DNA of 64,000 nucleotides from a virus: IMG/VR virus record IMGVR_UViG_3300032267_001142, positions 62,001-126,000 of that record. The stretch is one strand, 5' to 3'. The notes under the pieces are model-generated. The model searched no databases. It was not told the origin of the DNA and was given only the letters and a program-made list of their open reading frames with translations. Made by a program: the position numbers and the translations under genes. How positions within the stretch are numbered: the stretch's first letter is position 1; the number at the start of each line of letters is the position of its first letter. Positions 47,553 through 53,119 of the stretch are shown here, piece by piece.

Positions 47553-48092
47553 ATGCCTACGGACTCAATAAAAAAGCTAGAAAACGTCCTTCGCCACATC
47601 AAGCTAGTGCAAGATGCGACCCAGCTCTTAGGAAAGAGACTGATAGAGTCCGGTGAGGAGGAATTCGGAAGGGCGCTAATTGCTAGAGGGCTGATGCACG
47701 ATGTATCGAAACTCAGAGGCATCGAATGGAAGTTTCTGCACTCTTCCGAGCCTGCCACTACGGACGACGACAAAAAGAATCTGTCGTTAGCCATAGAGCA
47801 GCACCACGCAAGTAACGAGCATCATATTGAATTCTGGGGCGACCCCGAGTTTATGCCGAGATTATCCGTGGCCGAAATGATTTGCGACCTATACGCAAGG
47901 GCGCAGGAATTTGGTAGCGATGTCAAGGAATACATTTTTACTGACTTTTTCCGTCATCATAAGATTGGGCCTAATACCAAGACCGCGAAAAGGATGAAGT
48001 TTTTTCTCGACGTACTTCTAAATAAGCCCTTCAAAAAGGTTAAAGTCTGCGATAAGCAAGACGACAGCCGCGAACACAAAGAATCCAAATAA
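47553..48092 (+). CDS. DUF5662-like HD-type protein
   Basis: 179 residues. ARGLMHDVSKLRGIEW and IEQHHASNEHHIEFWGDPE give the His/Asp pattern of the small phage family DUF5662, probably an HD-like metal-dependent fold. The C-terminus has FTDFFRHHKIGPNT. Activity unknown; possible nucleotide phosphohydrolase. Two bases after the preceding stop. Confidence 0.6.
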   Translation: MPTDSIKKLENVLRHIKLVQDATQLLGKRLIESGEEEFGRALIARGLMHDVSKLRGIEWKFLHSSEPATTDDDKKNLSLAIEQHHASNEHHIEFWGDPEFMPRLSVAEMICDLYARAQEFGSDVKEYIFTDFFRHHKIGPNTKTAKRMKFFLDVLLNKPFKKVKVCDKQDDSREHKESK

Positions 48093-48489: not shown

Positions 48490-49623
48490 ATGACACCGTC
48501 ACTTTCTGATAGAGCGGACCTAATCGTATTGCGGCATCCGATAGTTCACGATAAATATACACAGGCCGCGCAGCAGATGTTTGACGTGCCTCACGCCGAG
48601 GAAAGCGTTACAGTTATTCAAAACGAGCTGACGATGCCGACTTCCGATTGGAACATCGGGCTTATTCATGGTCCGAGCGGTGCAGGAAAGTCTACTCTTC
48701 TTCGCCAATTCGGGAATCCCAAGACTTTCGCGTGGGACGCTCAGAAATCCGTGATAAGCCACTTTGACAACGTGTCTCCAGAAGAAGCAGCGGCGCTGCT
48801 TTCTTCGGTAGGATTTTCTACGGTTCCTGCTTGGCTCCGTCCGTATCATTGCTTGAGTGTCGGGGAAAGGTTCAGGTGCGATTTGGCTAGAGCCGTGGCA
48901 AGCGATGATACTATCATTTTAGTCGATGAGTTTACTTCTGTAGTCGATAGGAACGTCGCTCGCTCAGCCTGCGTGGCGCTTTCAAAACTAATACGCAAGA
49001 CCGGCAAAAAAATTATTCTGGCCTCGTGTCATTCGGATATAATTCCTTGGCTTTGCCCTGACTGGAGCTATGACCCTTCGGAGGCTGTGACCCACGAGTA
49101 TGCTCGTGGGAGCCTTCAACGCCCCGACGTTCATCTCAAAGTATTCAGAACAAAATATGAGGCGTGGCACCTATTCAGCAAATATCACTATCTGAGTGGA
49201 GACCTAAACAAGGCCGCTCGATGTTTCATGGCTACGTGGAATGACGTGCCGGTAGCTTTTTGTGCTATCCTCGCAATGCCTAATCCATACAAGAAGAATT
49301 GCTGGAGAGCCTCACGCACAGTAGTATTACCTGACTATCAAGGTTTGGGCATCGGAGTTAAGTTGTCAGACTATATGGGTTCATTAGTCAAAGCTGGCGG
49401 TGGAGTATATTATTCAAAGACTATTCATCCAGCCCTCATCGCTCACCGTTTGAAATCTGGTAAATGGAAAGAGACCTCCCATAGCCGTCAAGCTCGTAAT
49501 CCTTCCAACGAGTCAATGCAAAAAAGAAATTGGTTCGTTAGCCCTAGATTCTGCTACGCTTTTGAATATACTGGAGAGCCCGCTACAGAAGGGGCTGATA
49601 ATATCTTCTGGCAGAAATGCTGA
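48490..49623 (+). CDS. ABC ATPase - GNAT acetyltransferase fusion
   Basis: 377 residues. ABC ATPase: Walker A GPSGAGKST (61-69), signature LSVGERFRCDLARA (122-135), Walker B TIILVDE (141-147), H-loop His 181. There is no transmembrane domain, so it is a soluble ABC protein. From about 215 a GNAT-like domain begins: KYHYLSGDLNKAARCF and motif A VVLPDYQGLGIGVKL (278-292). The HY(L)S start followed by a GNAT core is reminiscent of the phage Mu Mom family of base-modifying acyltransferase-like enzymes, but this is only a resemblance. It may modify a nucleic acid, with the ABC part giving ATP-driven substrate handling. Own promoter; ends overlapping the small MazG-like gene. Confidence 0.75.
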   Translation: MTPSLSDRADLIVLRHPIVHDKYTQAAQQMFDVPHAEESVTVIQNELTMPTSDWNIGLIHGPSGAGKSTLLRQFGNPKTFAWDAQKSVISHFDNVSPEEAAALLSSVGFSTVPAWLRPYHCLSVGERFRCDLARAVASDDTIILVDEFTSVVDRNVARSACVALSKLIRKTGKKIILASCHSDIIPWLCPDWSYDPSEAVTHEYARGSLQRPDVHLKVFRTKYEAWHLFSKYHYLSGDLNKAARCFMATWNDVPVAFCAILAMPNPYKKNCWRASRTVVLPDYQGLGIGVKLSDYMGSLVKAGGGVYYSKTIHPALIAHRLKSGKWKETSHSRQARNPSNESMQKRNWFVSPRFCYAFEYTGEPATEGADNIFWQKC

Positions 49624-49877
49624 CCGCTAAGATTATGGGATATCATCGAAGAAAAATACCTAAAGGCAAACTAGGAGAAGCGTCCAAAATAACAGAAGAG
49701 TATCAAGAGATGCTCGATGGATTAGAGCAAGGAAATAAGGTGCTTGTTATCTGCGAGTTAGCTGATATGCTAGGAGCTATAGAAGCTTACGCTCTCAAGA
49801 CTTTCAATTTAACACTTGAGGATTTGCACAAAATGTCTAAAGCTACCGCAAGAGCTTTCAAAAAAGGAGACCGGTAA
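49617..49877 (+). CDS. Small MazG-like NTP pyrophosphohydrolase
   Basis: 86 residues. LGEASKITEEYQEM and KVLVICELADMLGAIEAY give the ExxE...ExxD helices of a minimal MazG-like fold. ATG 49617 overlaps the previous gene by 7 bases; an internal ATG at 49635 (MGYHRRKIPKG) matches the usual family start and is an alternative. Confidence 0.72.
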   Translation: MLTAKIMGYHRRKIPKGKLGEASKITEEYQEMLDGLEQGNKVLVICELADMLGAIEAYALKTFNLTLEDLHKMSKATARAFKKGDR

Positions 49878-50458
49878 TGATAAACTTTAAGGTAATAGAT
49901 GATTCGATTAAGCACTATGAAAAACGCGGATTTCAGAGAATAGAGAGTCCGTGGACAGTGACTCAAGAAGTGCTGGATATCACTAAGCCTGATAGTGCCG
50001 TTGACTCGTTCCGGCTATTACATAAGAACGGTAAGGGTCTTGTAGCCTCTGGAGAGCAATCGTTTCTATATCTTTACTTGAAGGGTTTCCTACCGCTTGG
50101 AAGGTTCCAGACTGTGACGCCGTGTTTTAGGTTTGAGAATTTTGACTCCCTGCATACGAAATACTTCATAAAAAACGAACTAATAGAAACGAAAGCCGTC
50201 TCCGAGGCGACTCTAAATGATATTCTCGCGAACGCTCACGCTTTCTTCTCTTCGTATTTTTCAGACGCGGAGGAGCAGCTTAAAATAATAAAGACAAATA
50301 AAGAAGGCTCGCCAACGTCTTACGACATTTGTTATAGAGGCGTCGAGTTAGGAAGCTACGGTATTCGTAGTTGCGACTTTCTGGAATGGATTTATGGGAC
50401 TGGCGTTGCCGAGCCGAGGCTATCCCAAGTAATAAGGAAATTCAAAGACAAGCGATAA
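49877..50458 (+). CDS. Minimal class II aminoacyl-tRNA synthetase-like protein
   Basis: 193 residues. ASGEQSFLYLYLKG, then TVTPCFRFENF (motif 2, FRxE at 84-87) and FIKNELIE, and finally YGTGVAEPRLSQ (motif 3, GxGxxxR at 173-181) with SYDICYRGVELGSYGIR before it, follow the order of a class II synthetase catalytic core. There is no anticodon-binding or editing domain, so it is not an ordinary synthetase. Paralogues of this type activate amino acids for other ends (for example EpmA, AsnA) or act as regulators. Coupled to both neighbours (TAATG at each side), between MazG-like and NADAR genes. Confidence 0.6.
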   Translation: MINFKVIDDSIKHYEKRGFQRIESPWTVTQEVLDITKPDSAVDSFRLLHKNGKGLVASGEQSFLYLYLKGFLPLGRFQTVTPCFRFENFDSLHTKYFIKNELIETKAVSEATLNDILANAHAFFSSYFSDAEEQLKIIKTNKEGSPTSYDICYRGVELGSYGIRSCDFLEWIYGTGVAEPRLSQVIRKFKDKR

Positions 50459-50896
50459 TGAAACAACCGATACTTGGATTCTTTGGAGACTTCCGTGTCC
50501 TATCTAACTTTTGGCCGTGCGTAATAGAATACTGCGGCTATTCTTACCAGAATACGGAGGCGGCTTTTCAGGGCAATAAAAGCAACTCACAAGAGGATAA
50601 AGAAAGGTTTTCTTCCATGACCGCCGCCGAAGCGAAGAGAGAAAGTAAGAAACTTCGGCTTCGCGATGACTGGCTCGCCGTTAGGGACCAAATAATGCTG
50701 GACCTTATTAGGATAAAGTTCTCTAGTGCGAACCCCCGACTTGGTAGATAAACTCGAAGCTACAGGGGACGCATATCTCGAAGAGACTAACACTTGGGGA
50801 GACATCTATTGGGGAGTTTGCAAAGGCGTCGGCCAGAATAAACTCGGGAAAATAATCGCGCAGGTCCGAGAAGAAAACAGAAGCTCTTTTTGTTAA
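50458..50896 (+). pseudogene. NADAR-family protein split by a +1 frameshift
   Basis: ATG at 50458 (TAATG overlap). The first 97 residues show GFFGDFRVLSNFWPCVI, YQNTEAAFQG and the middle helices of a NADAR domain but end at TAG/TAA near 50751. From 50738 the +1 frame continues as DLVDKLEATGDAYLEE, NTWGDIYWGVCKG, GQNKLGKII up to TAA 50894-50896, exactly the missing second half. The frames meet at a run of five C (50733-50737). This is a real frameshift mutation, a programmed +1 shift, or a homopolymer sequencing error. NADAR enzymes remove ADP-ribose from DNA guanine or process ADP-ribosyl compounds. Confidence 0.75.
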
Positions 50897-50966: not shown

Positions 50967-51998
50967 ATGAAAAGAAAACTGGCCTCAGTAAATGTCCTGA
51001 CGAATCTTCAAAAAATCGAGGGTGCCGACACCCTACAGAAGGGCAACATTCTGGGGTGGTCAGTAGTAACAAAAGCCGGAGCCTTCTCAGAGGGAGAAGA
51101 GGTCGTATACATCGAAGCGGATGCGGTTCTTCCAGAGGTTACGGAGTTCGAGTTTCTTCGCAAGAATAAGTTTAGGATTAAGCCGTGCAGGCTGCGCGGT
51201 CAGGTGTCTTTGGGACTCTGTATCCCTCTAAGCGAGGCGAAACAGGTCGCCGCAAATCTCGGCAACACAAACGTCAACTGGTCTGTCGGTGAAGATGTGA
51301 CAGAAGCGCTAGGAATCAAGAAGTTCGAGCCGTATGTTAGCCTATCCCTTTCTTCCGATATCAAGGGGCTATTTCCTTCATTCATTCCTCAGACCGATGA
51401 AATGAGAATCCAGTCAGTGCCAGAGCTTCTTAACAGGCACGAAAACCGTGAAGTCTATGTGTCTGAAAAATTGGAAGGAAGTTCCGCGACGTATTACTTG
51501 AATGATGGCGTCTTTGGGGTCTGTTCAAGGACGAGAGAACTTAAAGAGAGCGAATCTAACGCCTTCTGGTCCGTAGCGAAAAAGAACTCCATAGAACAGG
51601 GACTCAATACACTTGCTAAGTTCAGCAAGAATACCAAAAATATTGCTATCCAAGGCGAGCTGATTGGCCCTAAAATTCAGGGCAATCACTATGGATTAAC
51701 GGCTCCAGAATTTCGTCTTTTCAATGTTTGGGATATTGACAAACAGTGTCCGGTCGATTATGGTGACTTGTGCCTCGCCAGCTCAGTTCTTGAGCTGTAT
51801 TTGGTGCCAATCGTATATCACCGTATAAATCTGTCCGACAAAACTCTGGAAGAGTGGGTTTCTTTTGCTAACGGAAGAAGTCAGCTTGCCGATGTTCTCC
51901 GCGAAGGAATCGTCGTCAGGGCGATTTCTCCAGTCAGAGACGAAGACGTAGGCTGGATGTCCTTCAAGGCGATTTCTTCCGAATACCTTCTGCGATAA
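50967..51998 (+). CDS. Rnl5/DraRnl-type RNA ligase
   Basis: 343 residues. The N-terminal 90 residues form an OB-like module (RKLASVNVLTNLQKIEGAD, VVYIEADAVLP, RLRGQVSLGLCIPL), then the nucleotidyltransferase domain has motif I SEKLEGSS (Lys 168), IAIQGELIGP (motif III-like), GIVVRA (IV) and MSFKAISSEYLL (V). The OB-first order is that of the Deinococcus DRB0094 (Rnl5) family, which seals nicks with an RNA 3' end. Followed directly by the DNA ligase gene. Confidence 0.83.
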   Translation: MKRKLASVNVLTNLQKIEGADTLQKGNILGWSVVTKAGAFSEGEEVVYIEADAVLPEVTEFEFLRKNKFRIKPCRLRGQVSLGLCIPLSEAKQVAANLGNTNVNWSVGEDVTEALGIKKFEPYVSLSLSSDIKGLFPSFIPQTDEMRIQSVPELLNRHENREVYVSEKLEGSSATYYLNDGVFGVCSRTRELKESESNAFWSVAKKNSIEQGLNTLAKFSKNTKNIAIQGELIGPKIQGNHYGLTAPEFRLFNVWDIDKQCPVDYGDLCLASSVLELYLVPIVYHRINLSDKTLEEWVSFANGRSQLADVLREGIVVRAISPVRDEDVGWMSFKAISSEYLLR

Positions 51999-53119
51999 TG
52001 AACAACCTGCCCACATTATACTCCCGTAATCAAGACGGCTCCGTCCAGCAGTGGACTATCTTTTATGATGAAGATGGGTATTGGACGGAAAGCGGAAGAG
52101 TTGACGGCGTCATAACGCAGCACGGCAAGGTCGCGTGCGTAGGTAAAAATCTCGGGAAAAAGAACGAGACCACCGCAGCCCAACAAGCCGCGAGCGAGGC
52201 GCGTAGTAAGTTTGATAAGAAACTCAAGACCGGCCACTTCGAGGATGTGGCGCACATTGATAACTTCTACTTTGTAGAGCCCCAATTAGCAGTAGCGCTT
52301 GATAAAGTTAAGGCTGGTCTAGTTACACCGTGTTTGGTGCAGTGTAAGTATAACGGCGGCTGCGTTATTGCGACCCGTAAAGGTCTGTTTTCTCGCAAAG
52401 GCGAAGAGTATCTGTCGATACCTCACATTCAGCAGGCATTGAAGCCTATATTCGACAAATATCCAAACGCGGTCCTTCACGGCGAGGCGTTTAACGAAGG
52501 GTTACGCCAGCATCTTAATGAGATAATGAAGATTCTACGCAGAACTGTGAATGTCACCTCGGAAGTGTTACAGCGTAGCGAACAGCTCGTCCGTTTTTAT
52601 ATTTATGACGGTTATGGGTTTGAGGGAATGGAAGAGGAGACGCCATACAAGGACCGCAAGGCTGCGATTGACAACATTATCGCTGGGCATCCTAAATATT
52701 TATTTCAAGTTCCTACAGCGAAATGCTTGACGCAAAAAGAAGTTTGGGCGCTTTATCAAAGTTACATAGACGATGGGCACGAAGGGGCTATCGTCCGCTA
52801 CGAAGACAACATCTACGAACACAAACGCACACAGAAGCTTATCAAGCTCAAGCCTACGGACGATGATGAATTTTTGGTTGTAGCCTTACATGAAGGCACC
52901 GGAGACTGGGCTGGCACGGCTAGGCGCGTTGATTTCAAAATGAAGAACGGCGAAGTGTTCGGCGGCAACTTTAAGGGAAAGTTTGAGCAGGCGAAAGACG
53001 CTTGGGAGCACCCAGAGAAATATGTCGGCAAAGTCGTAACAGTGAGCTACAACGGACTCACTGGGCTGAATACTCCCAATTTCGCGCAGCTTGACCCCGA
53101 CAATTGTTTCAAATCGTAA
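51998..53119 (+). CDS. ATP-dependent DNA ligase with N-terminal WGR-like domain
   Basis: 373 residues. Residues 1-80 (LYSRNQDGSVQQWTIF, KVACVGKNLGKKN) resemble a WGR-type DNA-binding module. Motif I is CKYNGG (Lys 117) with Asn in place of the usual Asp. HGEAFNEG (III), HEGAIVRYED (IV) and KLIKLKP (V) follow, then an OB domain ending at 373. Seals nicks in replicated DNA. Its ATG overlaps the preceding TAA by one base. Confidence 0.85.
   Translation: MNNLPTLYSRNQDGSVQQWTIFYDEDGYWTESGRVDGVITQHGKVACVGKNLGKKNETTAAQQAASEARSKFDKKLKTGHFEDVAHIDNFYFVEPQLAVALDKVKAGLVTPCLVQCKYNGGCVIATRKGLFSRKGEEYLSIPHIQQALKPIFDKYPNAVLHGEAFNEGLRQHLNEIMKILRRTVNVTSEVLQRSEQLVRFYIYDGYGFEGMEEETPYKDRKAAIDNIIAGHPKYLFQVPTAKCLTQKEVWALYQSYIDDGHEGAIVRYEDNIYEHKRTQKLIKLKPTDDDEFLVVALHEGTGDWAGTARRVDFKMKNGEVFGGNFKGKFEQAKDAWEHPEKYVGKVVTVSYNGLTGLNTPNFAQLDPDNCFKS

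Follow-up and report, generated by a model that had tools for sequence, protein, structure and literature searches.

The window analysed here, a 64,000-base stretch corresponding to bases 62001–126000 of a 186,105-base IMG/VR virus record, carries a gene whose predicted product is an ATP-dependent acyltransferase, most likely one that places a mark on phage DNA. We hold this reading with moderate confidence on the strength of sequence comparisons. The product is a soluble ABC ATPase fused to a GNAT acyltransferase domain (ABC-GNAT), and the gene is one adapter-less member of a widespread predicted system. Because it belongs to an adapter-free subfamily, its role on DNA was inferred from its relatives, in which ABC-GNAT genes exchange places with the DNA modification gene mom and stand next to genes for ParB-like proteins.

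The ABC-GNAT protein and its family

The earlier note on this DNA had described a soluble ABC ATPase joined to an acyltransferase-like domain with a KYHYLSG start, and both features were borne out (Table 1). The window protein matched Pfam ABC_tran (1e-8; 36.3 bits, curated cut-off 25), and a profile search of the GNAT part against GNAT families, which the note had proposed, gave Acetyltransf_1 above its cut-off (4.7e-6; 27.3 bits, curated cut-off 20.7; residues 228–295). Walker A, the signature, the Walker B glutamate, the D-loop and the H-loop are all present, and the protein is thus a member of the ABC ATPase superfamily; the CoA motif, the Pfam match and structural matches likewise make it a member of the GNAT superfamily. 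Neither a membrane segment (the highest 19-residue Kyte-Doolittle mean was 1.48) nor, by Pfam, a permease domain was found in the window protein, which sets it apart from ABC transporters. An alignment of 25 diverse members showed little or no variation in R276, in the ABC motifs and in the CoA motif. F229, H233 and Y234 did not vary in that alignment, and RxVVLPDxQGxG and the QGLGIG of the acyl-CoA motif (residues 284–289 of the window protein) were near-invariant. The AlphaFold2 model had a mean pLDDT of 89.8 and a pTM of 0.84. Structure searches matched the ABC part across residues 8–210 (Z 13–14.5), and the GNAT part, modelled separately (pLDDT 88.0), matched GNATs at Z 12–14.

Table 1. 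Positions of the window gene, its domains and motifs, and of related loci with a frame change
Feature	Position	Strand	Remarks
ABC-GNAT fusion gene	48490..49623	+	ATG start, 377 aa; phrog_11143 family, adapter-free subfamily
Soluble ABC ATPase domain	48514..49104	+	residues about 9–205; Pfam ABC_tran; structure matches
Walker A GPSGAGKST	48670..48696	+	residues 61–69; alignment
ABC signature LSVGE	48853..48867	+	residues 122–126; alignment
Walker B and D-loop IILVDEFTSVVDR	48913..48951	+	residues 142–154; alignment
H-loop His181, part of conserved CHxDI motif	49030..49032	+	alignment
GNAT acyltransferase domain	49105..49578	+	residues about 206–363; Pfam Acetyltransf_1; separate structure model
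KYHYLSG motif	49180..49200	+	residues 231–237; H233 and Y234 invariant
Acyl-CoA motif RTVVLPDYQGLGIG	49315..49356	+	residues 276–289; alignment
Loci with GNAT in the -1 frame	L218:3872-4935, L225:2429-3483, L226:2366-3426, L227:2447-3843, L230:3932-5373		Firmicute phages

By sequence match (2e-114 over 355 residues, 12–366), the protein is assigned to phrog_11143, a large, uncharacterised phage family. Relatives were found in at least 596 IMG/VR stretches and in 353 GTDB stretches, the best of the latter being mostly planctomycete, and 81 phage records matched the window protein. Among the best full-length phage matches were those of Nonlabens P12024S (43%), Tenacibaculum pT24 (44%, over 94% of the length) and Aeromonas PX29 (40%). 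In its record, the pT24 gene (L082:8004-9176) is interrupted by an in-frame TGA. In a 125-member tree, 71 rows bearing the adapter described below were almost wholly separate from a 49-row adapter-free clade that includes the window protein (98% SH-aLRT, quick tree).

Mom, partner genes and reading frames in the relatives

Ten phages of Porphyromonas gingivalis share their last tail gene, and the adjoining slot at the right end varies: it holds Mom in four (012a–015a), ABC-GNAT in five, and is empty in 010a. The slot protein of phage015a matched Pfam Mom at 5.9e-56; Pfam was run on 015a, and 012a, 013a and 014a were assigned through the same 870-nt gene, annotated as an acetyltransferase. On inspection, 007a, 008a and 011a had a mini-gene before ABC-GNAT and a formyltransferase gene after it, and ABC-GNAT in 006a and 009a is known from tblastn matches. 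When 011a was compared with 015a, the left flank was 90–92% identical and the last 92 bases 83%. The flanking tail gene of 013a, a Mom phage, was 91–92% identical to that of the phages with the ABC-GNAT cassette and 84% identical to that of the other Mom phages. Since this gene is closer to that of the cassette phages, the slot content was swapped at least twice, independently of the backbone. Such an exchange is direct comparative evidence that Mom and ABC-GNAT fill one niche. However, the right end of Mu-like phages is an accessory-gene site, and the exchange need therefore not mean equal function.

Two further phages were considered as second cases of slot exchange and rejected. Pseudomonas phage Komp_PAO1_1 had no close relatives with the slot. 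Enterococcus phage 9184 was only suggestive: it lacks Mom where relatives such as PMBT2 have one just after the DNA polymerase gene, but most of its relatives were also without a Mom match (127 Enterococcus records had a 9184-type polymerase and 23 a PMBT2-type Mom). Aeromonas PX29 carries both Mom and ABC-GNAT, and Mom-family genes adjoin or lie near ABC-GNAT in three IMG/VR viral contigs (L070:1347-2372, L071:9023-9946 and L077:7115-7585, the last match being just under the Pfam cut-off), so that the two can also coexist.

The earlier note had likened the GNAT core to Mu Mom, and membership in the Mom family was dropped. Of 25 GNAT domains scanned, 24 matched Acetyltransf_1, and not one matched Pfam Mom (PF25680) at an E value of 10 or below. 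An hhalign comparison of the ABC-GNAT GNAT profile with seven diverse Mom proteins gave a probability of 0.15% (E 0.39), and the canonical acyl-CoA motif is kept. In the fold search with the GNAT model, RimI, Naa50 and other ordinary GNATs ranked closest, at 8–18% identity and thus at the level of the fold; the Mom crystal structure 8bv8 was absent among the best 50 matches listed, and its family may lie further down. Nevertheless, HY was invariant in the seven Mom proteins and occupies the same fold position as H233-Y234 of the window protein, after helix 1 and before strand 2, which we regard as a shared feature and not as proof of kinship.

Among 122 dereplicated loci, a single gene family was found at position -1 of ABC-GNAT in 46, which belong to the sister subfamily; it was always on the same strand, and 20 of the 46 showed a 22-base overlap with the start of ABC. 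The encoded protein resembles ParB (hhalign 99.9%, E 1e-31 against proteins with ParB_N, with ParB_N matches too) and ends in a conserved C-terminal segment of about 40 residues, the adapter tail. This segment also stands alone, as a 42-aa protein in the P. gingivalis phages, where it is annotated as an Acr candidate, and as a 49-aa protein in Komp_PAO1_1; no copy turned up in the Mom loci examined. In Microbacterium phage Pickles13, a ParB-like gene precedes Mom. The ABC-GNATs of P. gingivalis phages, Komp_PAO1_1 and a Gordonia phage group in a single clade (100%), and in all of them the next gene encodes a Formyl_trans_N protein (6e-12, 3e-17 and 7e-10). A search with this clade returned 80 loci, or 55 after dereplication at 80% identity. 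The adapter lay directly upstream in 51 of these and the formyltransferase downstream in 41, or in 40 of the 46 where more than 500 bases were available. Gene 3 of the Gordonia phage (L219:1823-2473), annotated as a tRNA-methyltransferase, is a Formyl_trans_N protein. Pseudoalteromonas phage SL25 carries unannotated genes for a ParB-like adapter and ABC-GNAT before the terminase (L220:3381-5100). Annotated neighbours of the viral ABC-GNAT relatives were mostly replication and packaging genes, terminase included.

In phages of Firmicutes (Streptococcus Javan141, Lactococcus P335, Oenococcus, Thomasclavelia and Enterococcus 9184), GNAT lies in the -1 frame relative to ABC. Conserved GNAT sequence starts ahead of any start codon in Javan141 and P335, and the junction in 9184 holds an A_AAA_AAG heptamer. 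Judging from these sequences, programmed -1 frameshifting is likely in the Firmicute-phage ABC-GNATs. The ABC and GNAT parts of 9184 (L230:1857-5373) are embedded in the DNA polymerase gene at its 3′ end, with GNAT followed in one frame by the final 80 polymerase residues.

Genome context and the likely substrate

A comparison with 50,697 phage records gave no near DNA match to bases 40001–64000 of the window. Among the phage's genes are those for RIIA/RIIB-like proteins, for RNA and DNA ligases, for ribonucleotide reductase and thymidylate synthase, for a nicotinamide phosphoribosyltransferase and for a DNA methyltransferase (N6_N4_Mtase, 8e-41, record position 155465–156157). Genes for Mom, ParB, the adapter tail or the formyltransferase were not found in the 186-kb record, and the cassette model therefore cannot be claimed for the window itself. 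The tree rows of the window's clade showed no adapter, and no conserved neighbour stood out. Two genes upstream of the fusion gene, positions 47553–48092 encode a DUF5662 protein (1e-20) that had no PHROG match. The ORF at 50371–50751 gave a weak NADAR match (2e-6, below the cut-off), and a DNA ligase family match in the genome (phrog_114) perhaps corresponds to the ORF at 51998–53119.

The nucleic-acid-modifying, anti-restriction role suggested in the earlier note gained ground in part, through evidence from relatives: the exchange with Mom in P. gingivalis phages, the ParB-like partner in the sister subfamily and the Mom genes near ABC-GNAT in three loci. These observations, together with the presence of both genes in PX29, support a mark on DNA. 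Further support comes from the replication and terminase neighbours, the N6/N4 methylase of the phage, the Mom-like position of HY and a published prediction. Against a DNA mark in the window itself stands the fact that the slot exchange and the ParB evidence come from the sister subfamily.

The genes close to the window gene would suit action on RNA too. They include those for a histidyl-tRNA-synthetase-like protein (phrog_4806) and an RNA ligase (phrog_968, 5e-61), at 49877–50458 and 50967–53119, and it is conceivable that the GNAT domain, powered by the ABC ATPase, acylates tRNA or rRNA and so shields RNA from host anticodon nucleases. ATPase-GNAT enzymes that modify RNA cytidine do exist, namely TmcA/NAT10. 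We nevertheless judge this rather unlikely, since the exchange with Mom, the ParB-like partners and the nearby Mom genes favour DNA, the genes annotated around viral relatives serve mostly replication and packaging, and Pfam detected no TmcA-specific domain in the window protein. Less probable still is an ATP-regulated acetyltransferase that targets lysines or N-termini of a host protein, for instance of RNA polymerase, of a restriction enzyme or of some other defence protein. The structure comparison argues for it, because RimI, Naa50 and other protein N-acetyltransferases are among the closest solved folds (Z 12–14), and PMC7824862 discusses phage GNATs that act on RNA polymerase. That ranking, however, is one of folds, and protein modification leaves the ParB-like partners, the formyltransferase and the Mom exchange unexplained. 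It is very improbable that the slot merely collects unrelated accessory genes and that ABC-GNAT does something else, for example small-molecule modification: phage right ends do gather such genes and one P. gingivalis slot is empty, but a nucleic-acid role fits better with active-site residues that are invariant across a large family, with the conserved order of three genes and with ParB partners that recur.

Proposed mechanism and comparison with known systems

Soluble ABC ATPases such as Rad50, MutS and UvrA clamp DNA. If the window enzyme marks DNA, two chains may pair through their ABC domains as an ATP sandwich and clamp the DNA in the same manner, and ATP binding and hydrolysis would position a base for the GNAT domain. 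This domain would move an acyl group from CoA to an exocyclic amine, with His233-Tyr234 in the substrate pocket, and the DNA so marked would withstand restriction by the host, which is the job of Mom. In the sister subfamily, the ParB-like adapter with its small conserved tail may recruit the enzyme, and in one clade the formyltransferase may add or substitute a formyl group; the window enzyme would act without either. More speculatively, the family as a whole could represent an ATP-driven DNA hypermodification unrelated by descent to Mom yet swapped at the same locus. In this tentative scheme, GNAT would acylate a base in DNA to which a ParB-like or stand-alone adapter has brought it. One clade would go on to formylate the product with a folate-type formyltransferase, giving a new class of acylated and formylated bases, and the Firmicute -1 frameshift would set the ratio of ABC alone to ABC-GNAT.

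To our knowledge, DNA-marking GNAT enzymes are known essentially from Mom alone. An abundant ATP-motor family with its own adapter, a formyltransferase in one branch and the ability to replace Mom would mean a second, ATP-driven base acylation that evades restriction. Near-identical backbones with Mom, the cassette or neither offer a ready experiment. The analysis also corrects annotations of cassette parts as iron-siderophore transporter, Acr candidate, tRNA-methyltransferase and DNA polymerase. Our literature search found no experiments (biochemistry, mass spectrometry) on the ABC-GNAT family and no papers on COG2401, and the LE3/LE4 phage paper contained nothing on restriction or DNA modification.

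The closest precedent is a prediction. Passages of Iyer et al. 2021 (PMC7824862) credit Iyer et al. 2013 with the prediction that a GNAT paired with an ABC ATPase acyl-modifies a DNA nucleobase, and they name phage pT24 for this system; the DNA-modification idea of the earlier note is therefore a rediscovery. The pT24 system has the same domain pair and the same predicted role. In contrast to our account, these passages of PMC7824862 are silent on an exchange with Mom, on an adapter tail and on a formyltransferase operon. These three features and the conserved -1 frame are new relative to the literature searched, which covers those passages of the 2021 paper.

TmcA/NAT10 resemble the window protein in fusing an ATPase module to a GNAT, and their GNAT modifies a nucleic-acid base, as is predicted here, but their ATPase is of the helicase type and their substrate RNA, whereas the window ATPase is of the ABC type. 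In the SSU5-like phage Cyrano, ParB-like genes are lined up with genes for an ABC ATPase and for a weakly GNAT-like protein, one gene being annotated 'MK0520, ABC-type ATPase fused to a predicted acetyltransferase'; unlike in the window, these genes are separate, resemblance to the window protein is confined to the ABC part (about 28%) and the GNAT assignment is weak (E 0.037). Mu Mom (PF25680, PDB 8bv8), which modifies adenine in DNA, has no detectable sequence kinship with ABC-GNAT and possesses neither an ABC domain nor the QxxGxG CoA motif, which is intact in the window protein. It is nevertheless a GNAT superfamily member by published assignment, has HY at the same place and occupies the same genomic slot as relatives of the window gene, and these relatives probably work like Mom and do the same job.
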